Source: Nitrospirota bacterium (lineage in GTDB: Bacteria > Nitrospirota > Nitrospiria > Nitrospirales > UBA8639). Taken from it: a stretch of DNA of 64,000 nucleotides. A program made the position numbers and the translations under genes. Below, in pieces: positions 10,316-62,016 of this stretch (within the stretch, counting starts at the first letter, position 1; each line of letters opens with the position of its first letter). Location: positions 1-64,000 of the forward strand of contig JAOTTP010000005.1 of assembly GCA_029864405.1 (NCBI GenBank), written 5' to 3'. The notes beneath the pieces are model-generated. The model ran no database searches. It was not told the DNA's origin and was given only the letters and a program-made list of their open reading frames with translations.

Positions 10316-12406
10316 ATGAAACCCGCATGCGATTCGCTGGACCAGCTTTGTATTAACACCATTCGTACCTTATCGATGGATGCGGTGCAAGCCGCGAACT
10401 CCGGGCATCCCGGTACCCCGATGGCCCTGGCCCCTGTAGCCTATTGGCTCTGGAATCGGATCTTGCGTTCTGATCCAGACGATCCCATCTGGCCGAATCG
10501 AGATCGGTTTGTTCTCTCGGCCGGGCATGCGTCGATGTTGCTCTATTCCCTGTTGCATCTCTGTGGCGTGAAAACGGTGAACGGACAATATGAGCAATTG
10601 GGTGAGCTTTCGGTGACGTTGGAGGATATTAAACGGTTTCGGCAATTAGAGAGCAAATGCCCTGGTCATCCTGAGTATCGTTGGACATCGGGCATCGAAA
10701 CCACGACCGGTCCATTAGGTCAGGGGGTGGCGACCAGTGTCGGCATGGCGATTGCGCAACGATGGATGGCCGGTTATTTCAATCGTCCCGATTTTGAAAT
10801 GTTTAACTACAATGTGTATGCCATTTGTGGTGATGGGTGTGTGATGGAAGGGGTGTCATCGGAAGCGGCATCTCTTGCCGGACACCTCAAATTGTCGAAT
10901 CTCTGTTGGATCTATGACAACAATAAGATCACAATTGAAGGCCATACGGACTTGGCCTTTACCGAAGATGTGGCCACCCGTTTTATCGCCTATGGCTGGA
11001 ATGTGACCCGTGTGGGGGATGCAAATGATCTCAATATGCTGGATCGCGCATTTGGCACGTTTTTGAAGGAATCAGATCGTCCGACGCTGATCATTGTGGA
11101 TAGTCATATTGCGTATGGTGCTCCGAATAAACAGGACACGCATTCGGCTCATGGTGAACCATTGGGTGAAGAAGAAATCCGATTGGCCAAACGCAATTAT
11201 GGTTGGCCGGAAGACGCCAGATTTCTTGTGCCCGATGACGTACCGACTCATTTCCAGCAGGGTATTGGGAAACGAGGCAAAGATTTGCGTAGCGCGTGGA
11301 TGGCCCGCTTTGCAGACTATCAAGCCAAATATCCGGAATTGGCTGGTCACTTGTATCAGATGCAGCATAGACAATTGCCCGATGGTTGGGGCAGCAAAAT
11401 TCCTGTTTTCCCGCCTGATGCCAAGGGGCTTGCCGGTCGAGAAGTGTCCGGGATCGTGTTGAATGCTTTGGCGGCGAATATTCCCTGGCTCCTTGGCGGA
11501 GCCGCAGACTTGGCTCCCTCCACGAAGACCCGATTGACCTTTGAGGGAGCCGGGGATTTGACCGGCAGCAATCCATCAGGACGAAATATTCATTTTGGCG
11601 TTCGGGAGCATGCGATGGGCGCTATCCTGAATGGGCTGTCCTTGTCAAAAGTCCGCCCCTATGGCTCAGGTTTTCTCATCTTTAGCGATTATGCCAGACC
11701 GGCCATCCGGTTAAGTGCCTTGATGGAAATTCCCGTCGTGCATATCTTTACCCATGATTCCATTGGGGTAGGAGAAGATGGACCGACACACCAGCCTATT
11801 GAACAAATCCCGTCGCTTCGCGCGATTCCCGGGTTAATGGTGTTTCGCCCGGGAGATGCCAACGAAATTGTCGAAGCGTGGAAGGTGATTATGGAGCTGC
11901 GGCACGAACCGGTGATTATGATTGTCTCCCGGCAGGCGATTCCCACGTTGGATCGAATGAAATATGCGTCTGCGTCCGGCGTGGCCAAAGGCGCCTATGT
12001 GTTGGCGGACCCGTCCGATGGCCTCCCCGAGGTGTTATTACTCGGCACGGGAAGCGAAGTGCCATTGTGCGTGCAAGCCCATGAGCAATTGGCGGTCGAA
12101 GGGATAAAAAGTCGAGTCGTCAGTATGCCTTCTTGGGAATTGTTCGAACAACAATCGGAAGACTATCAACGCTCGGTCATTCCCCCCGATGTCACCGCGC
12201 GGGTATCAGTCGAGCTCGCAGCCGATTTTGGCTGGGCGCGCTATGTCGGTACCCAGGGTCAGTCGATAGGGATGAAATCATTCGGCGCCTCCGCTCCGCT
12301 TAAGGAATTAGCCAAAAAATTTGGATTTACGGTTGAGCATGTGGTGGCGGCTGCCAAGGAGCAGATCGCACGGCACCAATCTCATGCCACGACGGCTCAA
12401 CGTTAA
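10316..12406 (+). CDS. tkt: Transketolase
   Basis: A full-length transketolase of 696 residues. It moves two-carbon ketol units between sugar phosphates in the non-oxidative pentose phosphate pathway and the Calvin cycle, using TPP and magnesium. Recognisable parts are NSGHPGTPMALAP near the N-terminus, TTTGPLGQG, the TPP motif CGDGCVMEGVSSEA, WIYDNNKITIEG, and in the pyrimidine domain FGVREHAMGAI and THDSIGVGEDGPTHQPIEQ. The ATG at 10316 is chosen because AAGGAG sits five bases upstream; a longer in-frame ATG at 10295 lacks one. It is followed after 28 bp by the transaldolase/isomerase fusion, so the two form an operon. Confidence 0.97.
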   Translation: MKPACDSLDQLCINTIRTLSMDAVQAANSGHPGTPMALAPVAYWLWNRILRSDPDDPIWPNRDRFVLSAGHASMLLYSLLHLCGVKTVNGQYEQLGELSVTLEDIKRFRQLESKCPGHPEYRWTSGIETTTGPLGQGVATSVGMAIAQRWMAGYFNRPDFEMFNYNVYAICGDGCVMEGVSSEAASLAGHLKLSNLCWIYDNNKITIEGHTDLAFTEDVATRFIAYGWNVTRVGDANDLNMLDRAFGTFLKESDRPTLIIVDSHIAYGAPNKQDTHSAHGEPLGEEEIRLAKRNYGWPEDARFLVPDDVPTHFQQGIGKRGKDLRSAWMARFADYQAKYPELAGHLYQMQHRQLPDGWGSKIPVFPPDAKGLAGREVSGIVLNALAANIPWLLGGAADLAPSTKTRLTFEGAGDLTGSNPSGRNIHFGVREHAMGAILNGLSLSKVRPYGSGFLIFSDYARPAIRLSALMEIPVVHIFTHDSIGVGEDGPTHQPIEQIPSLRAIPGLMVFRPGDANEIVEAWKVIMELRHEPVIMIVSRQAIPTLDRMKYASASGVAKGAYVLADPSDGLPEVLLLGTGSEVPLCVQAHEQLAVEGIKSRVVSMPSWELFEQQSEDYQRSVIPPDVTARVSVELAADFGWARYVGTQGQSIGMKSFGASAPLKELAKKFGFTVEHVVAAAKEQIARHQSHATTAQR

Positions 12407-12434
12407 GTCTTTTCTTTCTAAGGAGAACGTGACT

Positions 12435-15284
12435 ATGAATCCACTTGTGCAGCTTCGTGAGATGGGACAAAGTCCCTGGTATGACTATATTCGGCGGGGA
12501 TTGATCACATCTGGAGAACTTCAGAGGCTTATTGAGAACGATGGGCTCATGGGCATGACCTCGAATCCATCAATTTTTGAAAAAGCGATTGCGGGGAGTG
12601 CGGACTATGATGAAGCGATTGCACAGGTGGCGTCTCTGGTCACGAGCGTTAAACAGATTTATGAGGGAGTGGCCATTCAAGACATCCAGGATGCAGCCGA
12701 TCTGATGCGGCCCGTCTATGACACCTCGGACGGTCGTGATGGCTATGTGAGCTTGGAGGTCTCTCCGGATTTGGCCTTTGATACACAAGGTACCATCGAT
12801 GAAGCGGTCCGTTTGTGGCAAACCGTGGGCCGGGACAATGTCATGATTAAAGTGCCTGGAACTCCGGAAGGGCTACCCGCCATCGAGGAGCTTCTGTCCC
12901 AAGGCATCAATATCAATGTCACTCTTTTATTCAGTGTGGTGATGTATGAGCAGGTTGCCTGGAGCTATATCCGTGGGTTGAAACGGTTGGCGTCGCATAA
13001 GGGGAATTTGCATCGCGTCGCCTCGGTGGCCAGCTTTTTTGTGAGCCGGATCGATAGTCTGATAGATAAGACATTAGACGCGAAAATCACCAAAGAATCC
13101 CGTCCCGGTCCACGAGCGAAGATGGAAGGTCTCCTGGGAAAGGTCGCCATTGCCAATGCCAAGCTAGCCTACCAGACCTTTCGAGAGATCTTTGCGAGTG
13201 CCGAATTTCAATCCCTCAAAGCAGAGGGTGCACGGGTTCAGCGGGTCCTTTGGGCCAGCACCGGCACGAAAAATCCCAAATACCCGGATACCTACTATGT
13301 CGATAATCTCATTGGTCCGGATACCGTGAACACGATGCCGGAAGCGACGTTTGCCGCTTTCCGGAAGAACGGAACGGTGAAAAATACGATCCAGGAGGGC
13401 CTGGCTGAAGCGAAAGTGACCATGCAGCAGTTGGCCGAAGTCGGAATTTCGATGGAGGAGGTCACCAACACCCTCTTGAAGGATGGCGCACAATTATTTT
13501 TGGATGCCTTTGATCAGCTAATGGGAGTGATTAGCCGAAAGCGGGCGTTGATCTTAGGCGAGAAAGTGGACCGGGTCACCTATTCGGTTGGCTCGGTTCA
13601 GATGAAGGTAGACGAGGCGCTCAAAGAATTTCAACATACCAATCTGGTTCGCCGTTTGTGGAGCAAGGATCCAACCGTCTGGCATCACGATCCCGCTCAT
13701 CATGAGAACATTCGGAATGCGCTGGGGTGGTTGCGAATCACGGAACAGCAACTTCCCGGTCTACCCCGATTGCAGGCGTTGGCGGAGGAGATTAAAAACG
13801 CAGGATTCAAACATGTCCTGGTTCTGGGTATGGGGGGAAGCAGCCTGTGCCCGGAAGTGTGCCGGATGACCTTTGGCTTGATTCCCGGGTATCCCGAGCT
13901 GCATGTCCTGGATAGCACGGTGCCCTCGCAAGTGAGGGCATTTGAAGAACGGGTCGATTTGTCCACCACCTTGTGTGTGGTGGCGAGTAAGTCAGGGTCT
14001 ACCACCGAGCCACTCGTGTTTCAGAAATATTTCTTTGAGCGTATGCGGCAGGTTGTGGGGGAAAAGGCGGGTGACCATTTTATGGCCATTACCGATCCTG
14101 GGTCGTTGCTGGAGCAAGTGGCCAAGGAGCTGCGATTTCGACATATTCTTCCGGGAGTTCCAGAAATTGGCGGCCGGTATTCGGCCCTGTCGAACTTTGG
14201 CATGGTCCCTGCGGCCTTGATGGGCGTGAACATTGAGCATTTCTTGTATCGGGCGGAACGCATGCGTCATTCCTGTGGGGCCAGCGTGCCTCCTCAGGAT
14301 AATCCCGGTGTGATTCTCGGGACGGTCCTGGGCATTTGTGCCAAGGCTGGAAAGGACAAACTCACCATTGTAACCTCGCCGGCGCTATGGGATCTGGGTG
14401 CGTGGTTAGAACAATTGGTGGCTGAAAGCACGGGGAAAGAAGGAAAGGGAATTATTCCAGTTGATGGGGAACCCATAGGGGCCCCTGAGGTGTACGGCCA
14501 AGACCGGGTCTTTGCCTACATCCGATATGAACAAGGGATTGATGCCACGCAGGAAGCCAAGGTGAAGGCACTTGAGCAAGCCGGGCATCCGGTGATTCGC
14601 ATCAACGTCGCCGACCTGATTAATCTTGGTGAGCAATTTTTCTTATGGGAAATGGCGACCGCGGTGGCTGGAGCTCTGTTAGAGATTAATGCGTTCGATC
14701 AGCCAAACGTCCAGGAAAGTAAGGATTATACGAAGAAATATTTGGAAGCCTTTACCCGGACCGGCACCTTGCCGGATTCCACGCTATTGCTCAGCGAAGG
14801 CGATGTCACAGTCTATACCGATGAACAGAACGCCTCTGTCTTCAAAGGGAAGGGCTCCTTGGAGGCTGTGCTGAGCGTGCATCTCTCTCGTATCCAATCA
14901 GGCGATTATTTCGCCATCAATGCCTATGTGGAACGTACCGATGCCGTCCATGAAATTTTTCACCGCATTCGCACCAAGATTCGTGAAAGCAAACAGGTCG
15001 CGACGACGTTAGGGTATGGGCCTCGGTTTCTCCATTCCACCGGGCAATTGCATAAAGGCGGACCCAATTCCGGGGTCTTTATTCAGGTGACGTGTGATGA
15101 TCGGGAGGATCTTTCAATTCCTGATGAGCCCTATTCGTTTGGGGTGTTGAAAGCCGCGCAAGCATTGGGCGATATGCAAAGTCTGAGCAGTCGGCAACGA
15201 CGGGTTATTCGTCTGCATCTCGGGGCCGATGTTGAAAAGGGGTTGGCTCGCCTCGAGCAATTGATTGCAGCGAACCTATCGTGA
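12435..15284 (+). CDS. Bifunctional transaldolase / glucose-6-phosphate isomerase
   Basis: A 949-residue fusion. Residues about 1-370 are transaldolase, with the Schiff-base lysine K139 in VMIKVPGTPEG and GLMGMTSNPSIFEKAI. Residues about 430-949 are phosphoglucose isomerase, with the sugar-phosphate loop SKSGSTTEPL near 518-527 and the SIS-type GMGGSSLCPEV. The protein links erythrose 4-P/sedoheptulose 7-P exchange with fructose 6-P to glucose 6-P conversion, so it can return pentose-pathway carbon to the oxidative branch. AGGAG precedes the ATG at 12435; the longer frame from 12321 overlaps tkt and is rejected. This fusion is known from several phyla. The opposed zwf and gnd complete an oxidative pentose-phosphate cycle. 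Confidence 0.94.
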   Translation: MNPLVQLREMGQSPWYDYIRRGLITSGELQRLIENDGLMGMTSNPSIFEKAIAGSADYDEAIAQVASLVTSVKQIYEGVAIQDIQDAADLMRPVYDTSDGRDGYVSLEVSPDLAFDTQGTIDEAVRLWQTVGRDNVMIKVPGTPEGLPAIEELLSQGININVTLLFSVVMYEQVAWSYIRGLKRLASHKGNLHRVASVASFFVSRIDSLIDKTLDAKITKESRPGPRAKMEGLLGKVAIANAKLAYQTFREIFASAEFQSLKAEGARVQRVLWASTGTKNPKYPDTYYVDNLIGPDTVNTMPEATFAAFRKNGTVKNTIQEGLAEAKVTMQQLAEVGISMEEVTNTLLKDGAQLFLDAFDQLMGVISRKRALILGEKVDRVTYSVGSVQMKVDEALKEFQHTNLVRRLWSKDPTVWHHDPAHHENIRNALGWLRITEQQLPGLPRLQALAEEIKNAGFKHVLVLGMGGSSLCPEVCRMTFGLIPGYPELHVLDSTVPSQVRAFEERVDLSTTLCVVASKSGSTTEPLVFQKYFFERMRQVVGEKAGDHFMAITDPGSLLEQVAKELRFRHILPGVPEIGGRYSALSNFGMVPAALMGVNIEHFLYRAERMRHSCGASVPPQDNPGVILGTVLGICAKAGKDKLTIVTSPALWDLGAWLEQLVAESTGKEGKGIIPVDGEPIGAPEVYGQDRVFAYIRYEQGIDATQEAKVKALEQAGHPVIRINVADLINLGEQFFLWEMATAVAGALLEINAFDQPNVQESKDYTKKYLEAFTRTGTLPDSTLLLSEGDVTVYTDEQNASVFKGKGSLEAVLSVHLSRIQSGDYFAINAYVERTDAVHEIFHRIRTKIRESKQVATTLGYGPRFLHSTGQLHKGGPNSGVFIQVTCDDREDLSIPDEPYSFGVLKAAQALGDMQSLSSRQRRVIRLHLGADVEKGLARLEQLIAANLS

Positions 15285-22464: not shown

Positions 22465-22678
22465 AACGTTCTCCTGATAGGCTACCCAGCATTCCCTCCA
22501 TAGGAATAAGTTGTCGGCGTGTGATACGAATACTTTGGTTCGGGAATGGGCGACAATAATCGGACCCTCTTTTGACGGGTTGACGACCAGGACGGCTTGC
22601 CAAAAGATATCGATATCGGTTTTATTATCTGAATGCTCCCTGTGGTTTTTCCATTCCTTGCGTCGGGGGAAGGTAATT

Positions 22679-24625
22679 GTGGCAACTTTTGATCAACTCC
22701 ACCACTTACTCGAACAGTCCTTGCGGGATTTTCAAGCTGAATCGAGTGACCTCTCCGATACGCAAGAACAGGAACTCACTCAGGCGCTTCACCGATTGAC
22801 GGGTCGACTCACCGAGATTCTTTCAACAAATTCCGACCCATCTCGTACTGGTGAATTGCTTCCGGTTAGCGATCCGACAGTTTCGCTGACGGCTCCCATT
22901 TCTCTACCAGGAACACCTCAGATCCATTTCGTGACTTCGTGTGATGGTGTGGTCCTTATGGCCAATGAGGTGGTGGGTGATATCCTGGGGATGGATCTGA
23001 CCGAGATGGGGCAGGTGTCCATTGCCGATTATGTTGCTCAGGAGGAATGGAGGATTCTTCGAATCCATCTTCGTGCGCTTGATGCCCCCCATAAGTTCTT
23101 GAATAGGGTGCTGACGATTCTTCCAGCAGGAAGACCATCGCAGAAAGTCGCGTGCGTGGTGACGCCCATGTTCGATCAGTCCCAGAAGGTGGGGGCGTGG
23201 CATTGGGGATTGACCCTGGAAGCGGAGGACTCTTCCGCTCAGGCCTTTATCCACTTGATGCAGAGTCTCGAATCGCAATTATTTGCCGGCCAGAGTATGG
23301 ATGGGTGTCTGACGCAGATTTGTGATGGCCTTGTGCGGGCCTTTGGGTTTCCCTTTGTGTGGGTGGCCACTGTGCGAAAGGGATGTGTGGCCCAGTTACG
23401 CGGGCATGCGATGACTGCGGTTTTTGATTGGGAGTCACAGGGGGCTCTATGGTGGAGGGAGGTTTCGCAGCAAGGTGAGTTGATTCAGGCCTGCGAGGCT
23501 TCTGAAATATCACTTCTTTCTCCGTGTTGTCCTCCCACAAGTGCCATGGCTTGGTTTCCGCCCGGATTTCAGTTTCATCAAGCCTGGGGTGTTCCACTGG
23601 CTTTTCAGGAGGATTGTTTCGGTATGCTGGTGGTGTGTTCTGAGAGTACACAGGCGTTTGGTCCGACGGTACTCGGGTGGTTGCAGGCATTAGGCCATGA
23701 GATCGAACGGTTGATGGCGCGTGGAAGGCAACTGGATCAATGGCGATTGCAGAGTGCGGCTATCGGCTCAATGCATGATGCGGTGTGTGTGACAGACCCG
23801 CAGGGTCGTTTGGAATGGGTGAATAAAGCTTATGCCGCCTTGCAGGGCTCCTCAACTCAATTGGTGCTGGGTTCTCCGTTGAGTTCGTTCCCACATGAGG
23901 AACTGCAAGTCAGGAGGCCCCTGTCAGATTCCTCTGCCAAAGATCTCAGTTGGGTGAAGACCAAGGTGATGAAAACGGGGAGCAATGGCGAATCTCTGGT
24001 TTTTGAGCAAGTCGTGACTCCTTTGGTGAATGAGCAGGGACACCTCACGCATTTTGTGGTGATCTTGCATGATGTGACGGCTCGTACGACACAAGAATTG
24101 CTGATGAAGCATCAGGCTTATCACGATCCATTGACCGATTTACCGAATCGAATTATGTTTGAAGACCGCCTGGAACAGGCGTTGGCGCAAGCCAGGCGGA
24201 ATGGGACCTTACTGGCGTTATTCTTTTTGGATCTCGACAATTTCAAGGCCATCAATGATTATTATGGTCATCAAACTGGAGATCGCGTATTGCGTGTCGT
24301 CGCGGAGCGGCTGGCGACTTGTGTGCGATCGACCGATACCGTCGCGCGTTTGTGCGGGGATGAATTTACGGTGATCCTCCAAGGACTTGAGCATATTCAG
24401 GATATTCGGCAGGTGGCGCAGAAAATTTTAGAATGCCTTATTCCGCCCATTCAATTAGGTAAAGAAATTATTCCTATTCAGATCAGTATCGGGATTTCGG
24501 TCTATCCCAATGATTCCACGGATCCGCATCGGTTGTTAGAAATTGCCGATCAGGCGATGTATCGAGCTAAGGAATGCGGCGGGCAGTGCTGGTATTTCGC
24601 AACCCCTGAATGGAATGCCGAATAG
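22679..24625 (+). CDS. PAS/GAF sensor diguanylate cyclase (GGDEF)
   Basis: A 648-residue soluble signalling protein. After a short helical start come a PAS-like domain (FVTSCDGVVLMANEVVGDILGMD), a GAF-like region, a second PAS (AVCVTDPQGRLEWVNKAYAALQG) and a C-terminal GGDEF domain (from about 480). The catalytic motif reads CGDEF at about 559-563 instead of GGDEF; the metal and GTP residues DLDNFKAINDYYGH are intact and an inhibitory I-site RSTD lies five residues before the motif. It probably makes c-di-GMP, though the first-position cysteine is unusual. The GTG start at 22679 has GGGGGAAGG before it; the longer frame from 22511 lacks one. There is no EAL domain. Confidence 0.85.
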   Translation: MATFDQLHHLLEQSLRDFQAESSDLSDTQEQELTQALHRLTGRLTEILSTNSDPSRTGELLPVSDPTVSLTAPISLPGTPQIHFVTSCDGVVLMANEVVGDILGMDLTEMGQVSIADYVAQEEWRILRIHLRALDAPHKFLNRVLTILPAGRPSQKVACVVTPMFDQSQKVGAWHWGLTLEAEDSSAQAFIHLMQSLESQLFAGQSMDGCLTQICDGLVRAFGFPFVWVATVRKGCVAQLRGHAMTAVFDWESQGALWWREVSQQGELIQACEASEISLLSPCCPPTSAMAWFPPGFQFHQAWGVPLAFQEDCFGMLVVCSESTQAFGPTVLGWLQALGHEIERLMARGRQLDQWRLQSAAIGSMHDAVCVTDPQGRLEWVNKAYAALQGSSTQLVLGSPLSSFPHEELQVRRPLSDSSAKDLSWVKTKVMKTGSNGESLVFEQVVTPLVNEQGHLTHFVVILHDVTARTTQELLMKHQAYHDPLTDLPNRIMFEDRLEQALAQARRNGTLLALFFLDLDNFKAINDYYGHQTGDRVLRVVAERLATCVRSTDTVARLCGDEFTVILQGLEHIQDIRQVAQKILECLIPPIQLGKEIIPIQISIGISVYPNDSTDPHRLLEIADQAMYRAKECGGQCWYFATPEWNAE

Positions 24626-32638: not shown

Positions 32639-33738
32639 TAGAATGGTATTTGCGTAAAAAACGTTCAGCTGGCCATAGAAAGGGCTTTCCCAGTGTGAAT
32701 GTTCCCAGTCTCATCATTTACATCCTCGCTTTGGAATTGGGCCACTATAGTTGTGAGCAGGGACTGAGCGCGCCGGCAAATAGTGCCTATACTGCTGTGC
32801 ATGGTTCGACGAGCCTGTCCTGATCGACTCCGAAAGCCTCATCATGAACAGTCGTCCTGAAGTTGGGCTGTCCTGAGCCTGGTGAAGAGCGGGACGGAAT
32901 GATTCGGTGGCCATATCAATCGCACTCATACCTGATGTGTTGCGCCGATCTTTAGAGTTCAGGACTGTGGACATGGAGCACAAGCGTTTACCCGAAAAAT
33001 TTTTTGAATGATCTACCCCATCGTCCAGTTGGGTGGTCACAGTCGGAGTTGGAGTAAGAAATGGCATCGGGAATGGCTAGGGTGTTTCAGACTGGGTATT
33101 CTTGGAGGCGCTTCAAAGCCTTCAGACCAAGACCTTTTTGGAATATTTCCTCATTATCTTGATCTTGATAATGTTTCCAAGCTTCCTGTGTGAAAGATCC
33201 TCCTTCATCCCCCTCTGCCAAAGAGGGAATCAGCGTCCGCATTTCACATTCCGCCTGAGGCTTCACGATTCATTTCTCCTTATTCCTTTCGCCTCACCCC
33301 TTACGTCTTCTTAGATGCATTCCGTTAAAAAAAAATGTAGCGTTCCGAACAATTTCGATCTCCTTGGTCAGCAAAGAGAGACAACCCATCCCACCGCGAC
33401 ACAATATGAAAAAAATTCCACAAAAAACTCCGGCAAGTTTTCCCAGGGGACGTCGATAATGGAGCATGGAAAAGAGGTGGCACAGAACCCGGAATGAAAA
33501 GCTATCTTGGGTACACGAACATTTAGCCATGACGATGAAACATGCATTCGGTCGGGTGCCCCTTCCCGAGAAGGGCGAACACGTCGCAAGGCGTGGACGC
33601 AAAACCACGGGTCAGGGTTGGTCCCTGATAGCCGGGTTGCCGAAGGTACGGAGAACCAAGGGGCAACGATTACGGCAGAACATTTCGAGCAAACTGTCGT
33701 AGCGTACAAACATTATTCATGCTCGATAAGGAGATGCC
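32639..33738. other. Long leader region upstream of the flp pilin
   Basis: About 1.1 kb without a convincing protein gene. It includes a riboswitch at 33541-33650 and the flp ribosome site AAGGAG at 33728-33733. A small palindrome CATTATC/GATAATG lies near 33155. Several frames of 60-113 codons overlap each other and are not called. Confidence 0.55.
33541..33650 (+). promoter_or_regulatory. Cyclic-di-GMP-I (GEMM-I) riboswitch
   Basis: The conserved core is clear: stem CACGTC (33580-33585), GNRA loop GCAA, stem GGCGTG (33590-33595), then GACGCAAAACCAC (33596 on), a second perfect stem TCAGGG (33612-33617) / CCCTGA (33623-33628), and AGCCGGGTTGCCGAA (33630-33644). The tetraloop, the GACGCAAA strand and the GCCGGGTTGCCG strand are the hallmark of GEMM-I aptamers. 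TTCGGT (33547-33552) can close with GCCGAA (33639-33644). No T-rich terminator follows at once, so the mode of control is not obvious. It lies 90 bases upstream of the Flp pilin and should tie pilus expression to c-di-GMP. Confidence 0.85.
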
Positions 33739-33909
33739 ATGGTTAACCAAATGAAGCGTTTCATGAAGGAAGACGAAGGAGCCACCGCCATTGAGTACGG
33801 GTTGTTGGCCGCTTTGATCGCCGCAGTGATTGTGGTAGCGGTGCAGAACTTAGGCAATACAGTGAACGGGGCTTTCCAAGCTGTGGATGCTGGTATCCAA
33901 GGCAGCTAA
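33739..33909 (+). CDS. flp: Flp/Fap pilin, first copy
   Basis: A 56-residue type IVb pilin. The prepilin leader is 14 residues long and ends at E-D-E-G; the mature protein starts ATAIEYGLLAALIAAVIVVA with the E+5/Y+6 pair required by the Tad prepilin peptidase and methylation. The rest is one hydrophobic helix and a short polar tail ending IQGS. AAGGAG lies six bases before the ATG. This is likely the main shaft subunit of the pilus used for surface adhesion. It is the first gene of the Tad locus and follows a c-di-GMP riboswitch. A hairpin just after the stop separates it from the second pilin. Confidence 0.93.
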   Translation: MVNQMKRFMKEDEGATAIEYGLLAALIAAVIVVAVQNLGNTVNGAFQAVDAGIQGS

Positions 33910-34055: not shown

Positions 34056-34286
34056 GTGAATGCCATGGTGAAAGTATTCACGATAACCAAAAATATCGGT
34101 GAGTATGTTGGGATAATCGTGAAGGAATTTTTCCTAAGCGAAGAAGGTGCGACAGCCATTGAATATGCTCTGATGGCCGCACTAATTGGCTCAACGATCA
34201 TCGGTGCGCAAACTGCTATGGGTCAGACGGTGTTTACGATGTATCAGACTGCTGCCAATACCATTATGGCTGCAATGGGGAGTTAA
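34056..34286 (+). CDS. Flp-type pilin, second copy with long leader
   Basis: A 76-residue pilin-like protein with the same processing site as the first copy (SEEGATAIEYALMAALIG), giving a mature part of 45 residues. The leader is about 31 residues, much longer than usual and partly hydrophobic. TAAGGA lies five bases before the GTG at 34056; an in-frame ATG at 34065 is the alternative start. The tail TIMAAMGS differs from copy one. It may be a minor pilin or a phase of pilin diversification. It lies between the first pilin and tadE. Confidence 0.82.
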   Translation: MNAMVKVFTITKNIGEYVGIIVKEFFLSEEGATAIEYALMAALIGSTIIGAQTAMGQTVFTMYQTAANTIMAAMGS

Positions 34287-52390: not shown

Positions 52391-53614
52391 TTACCATAAG
52401 GCTTCAAGAATTTTCGAAATATCCCATTTTTCCTGATGAGGATCTAAGGCCTTTTCAATCGATCGAAGAGGTGTTGTTGCGCTTTGTGCCGCCAGATCAA
52501 TGATTTCCTGCTCTGGATAGGGTTGGCCTAAGGAGTCTTTAAGTAATTTAATGGTAGGAGTCATTCGACTATGGCTATGGACCCACACCACGACGGCCTG
52601 TTCGCCGGTATTCAGGCGAACCAGGGAACCAATCGGATACACTCCTAAGAGTTGGATCAATCGTTGCACGAGATACGGATGGTATTGCCCTGCGACAGCA
52701 GCACGATACAGTTCGGATAAGGCCCGAGCGGGGGGCACTGGTGGAAAGCTGCATCGTCCACTAATTTGTGCATCATAGGTGTCGGCAATGCTGAGTATTT
52801 GGGTTAATTCAGAAATCTGATGGGTTCGTAACCCCTTGGGGTAACCGGATCCGTCAAGCCGTTCATGATGTTCCAGGACCATTCGTTTCGACTCGTCAGG
52901 GATATCGGGGTAGTGATTAAGGATGGCCACGCCCATTTCACAATGCGCCTGCATTAATTTCTGTTCTTGAGGTGTGAAACGTCCCACCTTACGGATCATA
53001 TTCAACGGGAGACGAAGTTGTCCGATGTCGTGGAGAAGTGCTGCAAGCCCAACGAGTTTTAATTGTGTCGGATCGCAGCCGTGTTCTTGTCCGATTGCCA
53101 TGGCTAACATCCCCGTATCCACCCCGTGAGAGGCCAGGTTGGGATCGAAACGACGCATTTGAATCAGCGACACCATGGCGGCCTGATGGTCTAAAATCCC
53201 ATCAAGGAGGGTGCTGACCACACTTCGGACTTCTTCGAGGTGTTGGGGGGACGACGCTTCCATCTGACGGAAAAATACCTCCATTGTGGAGATGGCCTCC
53301 GCGCGAAGGAGACGAGCTGCTTCAATATCTTCCAGATTGGGCCCTGGGCCAACCCTGGGGGATGTTAACGGAGCTGTGGGAGAGAGGTCCTGGTCATCTG
53401 AGGGGTGCCGAACGCCACTCGTCTCGGCGAGATCGCATCCTTTTTCCGTGTCGATCTGGACTTCCTGAATCCCGTAACTGCGCAACAAGGCAATTTCATC
53501 CTCTCGTTTGATCGTCCATTTGTGACGGAGAAACGGGGTTTTAAACCACGATCGGTCCATGCCGGTGATATACATGCCTGGCCGCAGGTCCTGAATAGAG
53601 ATACGTTTATTCAT
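52391..53614 (-). CDS. HD-GYP phosphodiesterase with DUF3391 N-terminus
   Basis: A 407-residue protein. The N-terminal DUF3391 domain (ISIQDLRPGMYITGMDRSW, PFLRHKWTIKREDEIALLRSYGIQEVQID) is followed by an HD-GYP domain: LLHDIGQLRLPLNMIRK (about 198-214), AHCEMGVAILNHYPDI, and HHERLDGSGYPKGLRTHQIS (about 252-271). HD-GYP enzymes break c-di-GMP to GMP or pGpG. The ATG at 53614 is chosen because it starts the DUF3391 homology; the longer frame to 53830 carries an unrelated tail. The ribosome site is weak. It could counter the GGDEF protein and lower signal to the flp riboswitch. The metal ligands look intact. Confidence 0.9.
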   Translation of the reverse strand: MNKRISIQDLRPGMYITGMDRSWFKTPFLRHKWTIKREDEIALLRSYGIQEVQIDTEKGCDLAETSGVRHPSDDQDLSPTAPLTSPRVGPGPNLEDIEAARLLRAEAISTMEVFFRQMEASSPQHLEEVRSVVSTLLDGILDHQAAMVSLIQMRRFDPNLASHGVDTGMLAMAIGQEHGCDPTQLKLVGLAALLHDIGQLRLPLNMIRKVGRFTPQEQKLMQAHCEMGVAILNHYPDIPDESKRMVLEHHERLDGSGYPKGLRTHQISELTQILSIADTYDAQISGRCSFPPVPPARALSELYRAAVAGQYHPYLVQRLIQLLGVYPIGSLVRLNTGEQAVVVWVHSHSRMTPTIKLLKDSLGQPYPEQEIIDLAAQSATTPLRSIEKALDPHQEKWDISKILEALW

Positions 53615-53838
53615 GGTGCAAGGTCGGGCAAAAGGGGATGAAAAACGCACCAGATGAGACGTGAGATGTACAGATGTGTCCCCAACAACTGGGAAGCTGG
53701 ATGGAATGGCGCTCATGGTAACGTTATTCCCGTAAAAGGGCAAGAGAGGTGAGTCGAACCACCCAGCCCATGGCTTGACTGGAATGGTAGACGCAAGACC
53801 GAAACGACCGGCCATTCCCGAGGAAAGCATGGCAATGA

Positions 53839-59100: not shown

Positions 59101-62016
59101 ATGCCAAGAGAAATCAATCCCGCTCTTTCTGCAAATCAGCCACGGATTTTCCTGTCTTACGCTCGGAAAGATGGGGAGGCCTTCGCACGTGATCTCCGCC
59201 AAAAACTCACCGCTCACCCCTTCTCCCTCTGGCAGGACCGCACCCAAATGGAAGGGGGCAAAGCCTGGTGGGATCAAATCCTGGAAGCTCTCAAGCAGGT
59301 GGAATATATGGTGCTGGTCATGACTGAAGCCGCATTGGCCTCACCGGTGGTCAGAAAAGAATGGCGGCAGGCCCGCCAGGAAGGGGTCGGCGTCATTCCG
59401 GTCTTCGGTCAACCCGACCTGGATCTGTCTCAACTTCCTCGCTGGATGCGGGATGTGCATTGGGTCCATACCGAGGTTCCCGAGGAATGGACACGTTTCA
59501 TTCGCACGTTGGAAAGCCCCCATCAGGGCACGCGGGTGCCGTTCATGGCCGATGACCTGCCCATTGGGTTTGTGCCCCGGCACAAAGAATTTCAGGAATT
59601 GGCCGGAAGTTTGCTGGACCCTGAACAGGAAGAACCCATCGCCATCACCGCGGCCCTGAAAGGGGCCGGTGGATATGGCAAAACCACACTGGCCAAGGCT
59701 CTCTGCCATGATGACCGGATACAAGAGGCCTTTCACGATGGCATTCTGTGGGTCACCCTTGGGGAACAACCAAATACCATAGCCGGACTGACGAAACTCT
59801 ATGCAGCCTTAACCGAGGAACGTCCCAACTTTGTAGACGAAGAAGATGCGTCGGCCAGGCTGGCGGAAGTCCTGGGAGACAAAGATTGCCTGATGGTGAT
59901 CGACGATGTCTGGAATGCCGTTCATCTGCGTCCGTTCCTGCGTGGAGGCAAGCGCTGCGCGCGGATCATCACCACCAGAGACAGCACCACGCTTCCTGCC
60001 ATCGCCAGATTCCGGGTGCCGGTGGATGCCATGCAACGGCAGGAAGCCTTAGCCCTCTTGGCCTTCGATCTGCCGGCCAGTGCCTTGCGGGAAGGAGAAA
60101 CTGCGGCGCTTCAATCTTTAGCTGCACGATTAGGGGAGTGGCCTTTTCTGTTGAAATTGGCTAATGGCGTTTTGAGGGAGCGGGTAAACACCATGGGGCA
60201 GTCCCTTTCAGCGGCACTCACTTATGTGCAAAAAGCCTTGGACAAGCGTGGCCTCACCGCTTTTGATTCCAGAAATCCAGTCGAACGCAACCAAGCTGTA
60301 GCTGCCACACTCGGAGCCAGCTTCGAACATCTAAAAAAAGACGAACTCTCCCGCTATCAGGAACTCGCCATCTTCCCCGAAGACGTCGAAATCCCACTCA
60401 CCGCGGTAACAAAGCTCTGGGGCACGACCGGTGGTCTGGACGACTTCGATACAGAGGAACTCTGCACGCGGTTGAACCAATTGTCGCTTCTATTAAAATA
60501 CGATCCCACGACTCAACACATCCAACTGCATGACGTGGTGCGGACTTATCTGGAGCAACAAGTTTCCTCGCAATTACCGGCACTCCATGGACAATTTCTG
60601 GATGCCTATGACCTGAAGGATGAACCAGCCAAAGCCGCCCATGATCCTTATCTCTGTCGTCACTTGGCCTATCATCTGGTCAAGGCTGAACGGTGGGAGG
60701 AGCTAAAAACCCTCCTCCTGAATGTGGACTGGCTCTATGCGAAGTTGGAAGTGATGGATGTGCCGGCTCTGCTCTCCGACTTTGACTGGTTACAGAACGA
60801 AAAAATCTTCACCTTGGTCCATGGTGCTATCCGACTTTCAGCGCATATTGTGGGAAAAGATCCGAAGCAACTGGTAGGGCAATTGTTGGGTCGTTTACAA
60901 GCCGATCTTTCTCCTGGAATTCAAAACCTGGTCGAACAGGGAAAACAATGGGAAAAAAGTCCATGGCTTCGACCGCTGCAAGTTCACCTGATTGGTCCCG
61001 GCGGTCCACTCATTCGGACTCTCAGCGGGCATAGTGGCGTTGTGAACGCGGTGGCGGTGACGGCGGATGGGAGGCGGGCGATTTCTGCCTCGTCCGATCA
61101 GACGTGCATCGTGTGGGACCTGCGCACAGGGCAGGGCCTGCATACCCTCACTGGGCACAGTGCCTGGGTGTGGGCGCTCATTGTGACGGCGGATGGGATG
61201 CGAGCGATTTCGGCCTCTGGTGATCAGACGTGCAAGGTGTGGGACCTGTGCACGAGACAGGAACTGCACCCCTTATGGGGGCATCGTGCCTCGGTCAGGG
61301 CGGTGGCGGTAACGGCGGATGGGGCACGAGCCATTTCGGTCTCGGATGATGAGACGTGCATCGTGTGGGACCTACGCACAGGGCAGGGCCTGCACACCTT
61401 ACGGGGGCATAGGGGTTCAGTGAGAGCGGTCCCGGTAACGGCGGATGGCACACGGGCGGTTTCGGCGTCGGGTGATCGGACGTGCATCGTGTGGGACTTG
61501 CGCACGGGGCAGGAGCTGCACACTTTATGGGGGCATAGGGGCTGGGTGGGGGCGGTCGCGGTAACGACGGATGGGAAGCGGGGGATTTCGGCGTTGGAAG
61601 ATAAGACATGCAAAGTGTGGGACCTGTGTACCGGGCAGGAGTTGCACACCTTACGTGGGCATCATGACTCGGTCAGGGCGGTGGCGGTGACGGCGGATGG
61701 CACACGGGCAATTTCGGCCTCGGATTATCGGACGTGCAAAGTGTGGGACATGCGCACGGGGCGGGAGCTGCACACCTTACGGGGGCATAGGGGTTCAGTG
61801 AGAGCGGTCGCGGTAACGGCGGATGGCACACGGGCGATTTCGGCGTCGGAGGATCAGATGTGCAAAGTATGGGACCTGGCCAGTTATGAGGAAGTCGCCA
61901 CCTTTACTGGAGAGAGTGCAATCAACTGCTGTGCAGTTTCTCTTGATGGCAAAACGATTGTGATTGGAGAATCGTCCGGCCGGGTGCATTTCCTTCGTCT
62001 TGAAGGAGTTGATTGA
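59101..62016 (+). CDS. TIR / NB-ARC / WD40 NLR-like protein, probable defence protein
   Basis: A 971-residue three-part protein. Residues 13-140 are a TIR domain (RIFLSYARKDGEAFARDLRQ, SLWQDRTQMEGGKAWW, VEYMVLVMTEAALASPVVRKEW); E87 is at the place of the catalytic glutamate of NAD-cleaving TIRs. Residues about 155-500 are NB-ARC: P-loop GAGGYGKTT with K194, Walker B LMVIDDVW (264-271), TTRD (291-294), GEWPFLLKLANG (345 on), and LHD (476-478) at the MHD position. A helical linker leads to eight WD40 units (638-971). In bacteria such STAND proteins sense a phage product with the repeats and trigger TIR killing by NAD loss; this role is inferred. No ribosome site is clear; no partner genes adjoin. 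Confidence 0.88.
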   Translation: MPREINPALSANQPRIFLSYARKDGEAFARDLRQKLTAHPFSLWQDRTQMEGGKAWWDQILEALKQVEYMVLVMTEAALASPVVRKEWRQARQEGVGVIPVFGQPDLDLSQLPRWMRDVHWVHTEVPEEWTRFIRTLESPHQGTRVPFMADDLPIGFVPRHKEFQELAGSLLDPEQEEPIAITAALKGAGGYGKTTLAKALCHDDRIQEAFHDGILWVTLGEQPNTIAGLTKLYAALTEERPNFVDEEDASARLAEVLGDKDCLMVIDDVWNAVHLRPFLRGGKRCARIITTRDSTTLPAIARFRVPVDAMQRQEALALLAFDLPASALREGETAALQSLAARLGEWPFLLKLANGVLRERVNTMGQSLSAALTYVQKALDKRGLTAFDSRNPVERNQAVAATLGASFEHLKKDELSRYQELAIFPEDVEIPLTAVTKLWGTTGGLDDFDTEELCTRLNQLSLLLKYDPTTQHIQLHDVVRTYLEQQVSSQLPALHGQFLDAYDLKDEPAKAAHDPYLCRHLAYHLVKAERWEELKTLLLNVDWLYAKLEVMDVPALLSDFDWLQNEKIFTLVHGAIRLSAHIVGKDPKQLVGQLLGRLQADLSPGIQNLVEQGKQWEKSPWLRPLQVHLIGPGGPLIRTLSGHSGVVNAVAVTADGRRAISASSDQTCIVWDLRTGQGLHTLTGHSAWVWALIVTADGMRAISASGDQTCKVWDLCTRQELHPLWGHRASVRAVAVTADGARAISVSDDETCIVWDLRTGQGLHTLRGHRGSVRAVPVTADGTRAVSASGDRTCIVWDLRTGQELHTLWGHRGWVGAVAVTTDGKRGISALEDKTCKVWDLCTGQELHTLRGHHDSVRAVAVTADGTRAISASDYRTCKVWDMRTGRELHTLRGHRGSVRAVAVTADGTRAISASEDQMCKVWDLASYEEVATFTGESAINCCAVSLDGKTIVIGESSGRVHFLRLEGVD
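61012..61890 (+). repeat. Array of near-identical 126-bp WD40-coding repeats
   Basis: GTGTGGGAC-type words recur every 126 bases at 61111, 61237, 61363, 61489, 61615, 61741 and 61867 (the last as GTATGGGAC). Each unit codes 42 residues (LHTLxGHxxxVxAVxVTADGxRAISASxDxTCxVWDL). The unit at about 61390 and the one at about 61768 are almost identical for 80 bases. Variation falls at the few positions marked x. Confidence 0.9.

Follow-up and report, generated by a model that had tools for sequence, protein, structure and literature searches.

A c-di-GMP-I riboswitch aptamer precedes the Flp pilin gene of a Nitrospirales tad operon and is followed by conserved RNA structure next to the Shine-Dalgarno sequence

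The flp pilin gene that opens a tad operon in an uncultured member of Nitrospirales is preceded by a genuine c-di-GMP-I (GEMM-I) aptamer, an ordinary member of a known riboswitch family, at positions 33565-33645 of the 64 kb stretch of DNA analysed here (hereafter, the window). We consider it likely that this riboswitch gates translation from the tad/flp leader, on a transcript initiated by the flagellar sigma factor, with activation of pilin synthesis as the likeliest sign. The aptamer is of a known kind; the expression platform and the proposed flagellar-sigma circuit make a new variation on it. The identity of the aptamer, its canonical binding pocket, the gene context, the conservation, the covariation of two additional helices (P0 and S1) and the promoter match were all computed; ligand binding in vivo, the role of the knot as a switch element, the translational mode and the sign are predictions.

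The source genome is a Nitrospirales metagenome assembly (66% complete, 2.89 Mb); the closest named relatives of the CpaC-like protein encoded in the window are those of Nitrospirales bacteria (Dino_bin26, NPIRA03, Nitrospira sp. HKST-UBA08 and others). The locus comprises the following features:

33433-33459, + strand: predicted sigma28/FliA-type promoter, GCAAGTTT-N11-GTCGATAA
33552-33556, + strand: TCGGG, a possible toggle strand, just 5' of P0
33557-33564, + strand: 5' strand of P0, TGCCCCTT, forming 8 pairs with 33658-33665
33565-33645, + strand: c-di-GMP-I (GEMM-I) aptamer with helices P1, P1b, P2 (GCAA loop) and P3; RF03167, RF01051
33658-33665, + strand: 3' strand of P0, AAGGGGCA, pairing with 33557-33564
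33670-33702, + strand: S1 hairpin (33670-33678 with 33694-33702), the loop of which holds the 5' strand of the putative pseudoknot
33685-33691, + strand: putative pseudoknot 5' strand, TCGAGCA, in the S1 loop, 7 bp with 33720-33726
33720-33726, + strand: putative pseudoknot 3' strand, TGCTCGA, ending 1 nt before the Shine-Dalgarno sequence
33728-33733, + strand: Shine-Dalgarno sequence AAGGAG in front of flp, kept in relatives
33739-33909, + strand: flp pilin gene 1, 56 aa; Pfam Flp_Fap, 58.4 bits (cut-off 32.2)
34065-34286, + strand: flp pilin gene 2; Pfam Flp_Fap, 39.1 bits
34446-47695, + strand: rest of the tad operon, encoding TadE, TadE/G-like, prepilin peptidase (39484), CpaB-, CpaC- and CpaE-like, TadA ATPase (44318) and TadB/TadC-like proteins

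Flp pilin, prepilin peptidase, TadA ATPase and TadE/G, each found by Pfam above the cut-off, mark these genes as a Flp/Tad pilus operon; the domain matches are Pfam TadE, Tad, Tad_C, Peptidase_A24 and T2SSE along with NCBIfam secretin and MinD-type matches, and the CpaB and TadB/C assignments were made by reading and gene order. The gene next to the aptamer encodes an Flp pilin, as an earlier sequence-only reading of this DNA had stated; it is flp pilin gene 1, the first of the operon, and its ATG lies 93 nt 3' of the aptamer end. An upstream frame, open across the aptamer from 33507 to 33746, was rejected as a gene because it is not conserved: most relatives carry an in-frame TAA at CCCGATAA.

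A cmscan search of the 64 kb at gathering thresholds yielded a single Rfam match, to RF03167 (c-di-GMP-I-GGC) at 33565-33645 of the plus strand, with 68.9 bits (cut-off 59), an E-value of 3.3e-14 and full-length coverage of the model (1-80 of 80). The parent family, RF01051, matches 33564-33644 with 70.8 bits (cut-off 35; E 8.1e-14 in the own genome), so that the covariance-model check called for in the sequence-only reading comes out in favor of its assignment. The signature parts named there are all located within 33586-33644, namely, the GCAA tetraloop of P2, which belongs to the GNRA type (33586-33589), GACGCAAAACC at 33596-33606 and GCCGGGTTGCCGAA at 33631-33644. When 33557-33666 was folded, none of 200 dinucleotide shuffles scored as well (z -3.8). 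The aptamer is best bounded at 33565-33645, or at 33557-33665 with P0; the previously proposed limits, 33541-33650, cover the aptamer but leave the 3' strand of P0 outside.

The contacts that Vc2 of Vibrio cholerae makes with its ligand, G20, A47 and C92 (PMC4744006; PMC3764141), correspond, through the Rfam alignment, to G 33574, A 33601 and C 33640 in the window, and the interhelical C44-G83 pair, numbered as in PMC3764141, to C 33598 and G 33631. The window thus shares with the RF01051 riboswitches Vc2 and Vc1 of V. cholerae the three-helix aptamer, the GNRA loop, the three contacts and the interhelical pair; it differs in its Flp pilin target and in a G (33577) at the position of A23, a base listed as highly conserved in c-di-GMP-I riboswitches that is not a ligand contact and so does not strictly define them (PMC3764141). 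The close flp leaders mostly have this G too, and we retain the assignment to RF01051 given a whole-model score well above the cut-off.

With G20, A47 and C92 canonical, c-di-GMP is the expected ligand, and its binding is predicted. The best Rfam label, RF03167, is that of a variant family, a point in favor of another natural ligand, cGAMP or a different dinucleotide, and nine further aptamers of the relatives carry A20, which we take to mark the cGAMP riboswitch class. Nevertheless, position 20 is G in the window and in all 20 flp leaders identified below, the A of the cGAMP class being absent, which makes cGAMP unlikely and led us to reject the cGAMP reading. In the consensus of RF03167, position 47 is G, and we read the name GGC as referring to the bases G20, G47 and C92; the window scores above the RF03167 cut-off and yet has A at this position, without the apparent diagnostic G, so the binding pocket is of the ordinary type and the c-di-GMP-I-GGC variant reading was discarded despite the score. 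Given also that all flp aptamers are G20/A47/C92 and that RF01051 outscores RF03167 in bits, a ligand other than c-di-GMP appears very improbable, and the GGC label on this aptamer is best seen as the outcome of competition between two overlapping models. More generally, this case is a caution that canonical aptamers may be given the GGC label by Rfam. The cGAMP (GEMM-Ib) riboswitches of Geobacter are built on the same scaffold with an altered binding-pocket sequence (PMC8835794); the window has G20 instead of A. The nine A20 aptamers (L003, L015, L063, L074, L076, L077, L127, L150 and L151) include one of the own genome (L003 1501-1595, contig C68) that lies in front of a response regulator gene and comes with a FliA-type promoter as well as a terminator; judging by the A20 base, cGAMP sensing in Nitrospirales is possible.

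The sequence-only reading also pointed to a possible cyclase and a phosphodiesterase in the window. Both are real, a GGDEF domain protein (22511-24625, 175 bits, Pfam) and an HD-GYP-type HD domain protein with DUF3391 (52391-53830, Pfam); neither is adjacent to the aptamer, and, such genes being common, they add little. The GGDEF protein has the signature CGDEF instead of GGDEF and an RxxD inhibitory-site motif just upstream. Elsewhere in the window, 12321-15284 reads as a transaldolase-glucose-6-phosphate isomerase fusion located directly 3' of a transketolase gene, and 59101-62016 encodes a large protein, possibly involved in defence, whose sequence reads as TIR-like at the start and NB-ARC-like in the middle, with repeats of the WD40 type.

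RF01051 was found in 38 of 59 relatives, and a model built here collected 135 distinct aptamers; at positions 20/47/92, 119 of these have GAC, 9 have AAC, 4 have CAC and 3 other combinations. The next gene most often encodes a large secreted protein (42), FliA (24), Flp pilin (20), a response regulator (12) or a flagellar rod-type protein (4), with small groups making up the remainder. The 20 flp loci come from 15 genomes of the genus of the window, one each from four other genera (G027, G021, G025 and G031) and one unplaced contig (L054), and represent at least five of the family's genera; L036, where the gene is cut by the contig end, was included, and L024, a member of the automatic Flp cluster with its Flp-type frame starting 495 nt away, was not. 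Throughout this set, 92-99 nt separate the aptamer end from the ATG, and G20, A47 and C92 are intact. Within the genus, the aptamer is carried by all 15 genomes in which both the main Flp gene and the region upstream of it are present, whereas four of the genomes without it (G001, G012, G017 and G019) have no strong match to the main Flp and, in the fifth (G006), the gene lies at a contig edge. The family assignment, the contacts and the fit of the target gene, together with the pairing of aptamer and flp in 20 loci, make control of the pilin by c-di-GMP at the RNA level, as originally suggested, the best reading of these sequences.

Three elements of the leader, P0, the S1 hairpin and the putative pseudoknot at the Shine-Dalgarno sequence, lie outside the RF01051 family model. 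The pseudoknot would be of the H type, formed by the S1 loop with GCCCG or GCTCG immediately 5' of the Shine-Dalgarno sequence. Covariation was counted in a MAFFT alignment of 17 loci, made from sequence only, against a structure composed of the aptamer helices, P0, S1 and the pseudoknot. Two-sided changes were detected in 11 of the 49 pairs, compared to 5.6 expected from shuffles, with none of 500 shuffles as high, and 93.8% of the cells are paired overall versus about 40% for slid structures. P0 is paired in 100% of the cells and shows two-sided changes in 3 pairs; in S1, such changes occur in 2 of 9 pairs, and in 6 of 7 pairs once three other genera are added in a hand-cut, structure-fitted alignment that favors the structure by construction. 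By computation, then, P0 and S1 are conserved helices backed by compensatory changes. The predicted knot draws on conservation and on one compensatory event, in that the core, CGGGC/GCCCG in almost every relative, reads CGAGC/GCTCG in the window; this pairing may be the switch element.

One relative has a decayed copy of the flp leader (L179 680-840, contig C32 of G006) in which the 5' half of the aptamer is missing; the 3' strand of P0, the S1 hairpin, both strands of the knot and the Shine-Dalgarno sequence persist in front of another Flp-like gene. The knot can thus exist on its own and might work independently of c-di-GMP. The existence of such a copy, and the proposal that the c-di-GMP riboswitch RNA of Bdellovibrio (merRNA) is a c-di-GMP reservoir (PMC3627812), would fit a leader that is a decaying riboswitch or a mere sponge for c-di-GMP with no effect on flp. 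For the intact leaders, this seems most unlikely: the pairs are maintained by compensatory changes across the loci, the spacing to flp is nearly constant, and the contacts have been kept in all 20.

The mechanism that we propose starts with transcription from the flagellin-type FliA (sigma28) promoter, about 100 nt 5' of the aptamer, which would produce a leader of about 270 nt. Binding of c-di-GMP at G20, A47 and C92 would stabilize P1 and the stacked closing helix P0, and this stabilization would alter the fold of the ribosome-binding region, where the S1 loop can knot with the GCTCG that precedes the Shine-Dalgarno sequence. The start of flp translation would be the most likely control point, given that no terminator is present in the window. 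Indeed, a search of the window leader found no terminator-like site, and this result combined with the conserved structure at the Shine-Dalgarno sequence favors control that is probably translational and acts via the pseudoknot, a feature missed by the sequence-only reading. Alternatively, S1 or a Rho site could end the transcript before flp, in the manner of the fliA leaders of the same family, where a terminator accompanies 20 of 21 fliA-linked aptamers of the relatives. In two or three of the related flp leaders, S1 is followed by a T-run that might terminate transcription, for example, 5-6 T directly after the hairpin in L016 and L049. However, the window leader has no terminator-like site, 17 of the 20 flp leaders lack a hairpin plus T-run by a simple test, and the conserved pairing sits at the Shine-Dalgarno sequence, so we regard transcriptional control as unlikely.

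Energy modelling of the 20 loci, free versus with the aptamer forced, gave no consistent switch. For the window, the Shine-Dalgarno sequence is 0.81 unpaired with and without the forced aptamer, in single-sequence folding with pseudoknots outside the model; with the site open in both states, the energy model does not reproduce switching. As to the sign of the predicted translational control, c-di-GMP generally promotes attachment, and this general link between high c-di-GMP and attachment leads us to prefer, by a modest degree, an ON switch, in which more c-di-GMP would mean more pilin. The opposite sign would involve the TCGGG pentamer, whose complement is present in the P1 strand CCCGA (33565-33569) and, allowing one G-U pair, in CTCGA (33722-33726): c-di-GMP would free TCGGG from CCCGA, and TCGGG would then capture CCCG or CTCG beside the Shine-Dalgarno sequence, turning the pilin OFF. 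TCGGG is found in 20 of 20 flp leaders and in none of the 115 other c-di-GMP-I leaders of the relatives, and forcing the aptamer raises its pairing to the strand near the Shine-Dalgarno sequence in several relatives (from 0.03 to 0.44 in L052 and from 0.17 to 0.96 in L023). For the window (0.06 in both states) and most of its close relatives, there is no such rise; furthermore, as TCGGG never varies, it offers no covariation, and its role is a guess. With the attachment argument also on the side of activation, we consider the OFF switch the less probable of the two signs, albeit a realistic one.

The flp transcript is probably produced from the predicted FliA-type promoter, which the sequence-only reading had also missed. 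With its spacer of 11 nt, this site matches 13 of 16 positions of TAAAGTTT-N11-GCCGATAA, which we take to be the E. coli FliA consensus, and it is almost identical to the flagellin promoter of the genome itself; a scan for sigma70-type promoters found no plus-strand site. The flagellin promoters of the genus have the form TCAAGTTT-N11-GTCGATAC or one close to it, and AAGTTT-N11-GNCGATA occurs twice in the 2.89 Mb genome, at 33433-33459 and before the flagellin gene, a count that is descriptive as the pattern was chosen after both sites were known. A FliA-type site is located at exactly -131 from the aptamer in 14 of the 17 closer loci, and near -213 in the other three. The three more distant genera have no such site near the flp aptamer; theirs precedes another aptamer that lies about 530 nt further upstream. 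Such pairs of c-di-GMP-I aptamers about 530 nt apart precede flp in L023/L084, L028/L087 and L068 (relatives G025, G021 and G031), the first aptamer with a close upstream FliA-type promoter and the second with the flp-type platform. Among 131 c-di-GMP-I leaders, 71 have a site matching at least 12 of 16 positions within 300 nt upstream, compared to 2% in shuffles, related loci not being independent. At 33508-33540, the interval from promoter to riboswitch contains a conserved pattern, TGGGT..ACGAACAT......AT.AC, parts of which are kept in the more distant genera too. The fliA gene of the genome (TIGR02479, 199 bits) itself follows a c-di-GMP-I aptamer (L002 1501-1591, contig C152) and then a terminator-like hairpin with a T-run, an arrangement present in most of the family genomes examined.

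In the type IV pili of Clostridioides difficile, a c-di-GMP riboswitch with a class II aptamer resides in a pilus-gene leader and acts on transcription. Thus, in both cases, a c-di-GMP riboswitch leads pilus genes, of the type IV pilus there and of the Flp/Tad pilus in the window. The c-di-GMP riboswitch regulon of C. difficile is covered in PMC6200980. In Bdellovibrio bacteriovorus, many surface genes other than those of the flagellum are under FliA-type promoters (TTAAG-N16-CCGATA), and merRNA belongs to the same life phase as the FliA regulon (PMC3627812). For merRNA, however, no FliA promoter is listed, and the gene that follows it is not conserved (PMC3627812), whereas in the window promoter and riboswitch stand in cis before the pilin gene. 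A search of open-access literature turned up no description of a Tad/Flp pilin gene preceded by a c-di-GMP riboswitch, nor of such a riboswitch in Nitrospira.

The combination of fliA behind a terminator-linked riboswitch with FliA-type promoters on about half of the c-di-GMP-I leaders brings up a broader scheme, which we put forward tentatively: the Tad pilin mRNA would be made as part of the flagellar program and, via the knot, translated only when c-di-GMP rises. If so, this circuit of a sigma factor and riboswitches would be a pre-loaded attachment switch in these Nitrospirales, and the decision to swim or to stick would be built of one sigma factor and a riboswitch set. A conserved knot-type platform, testable in a laboratory host, would add a mechanism at the ribosome site to a riboswitch class best known for its aptamer, and c-di-GMP would set pilus production on the mRNA itself in uncultured, ecologically important bacteria.
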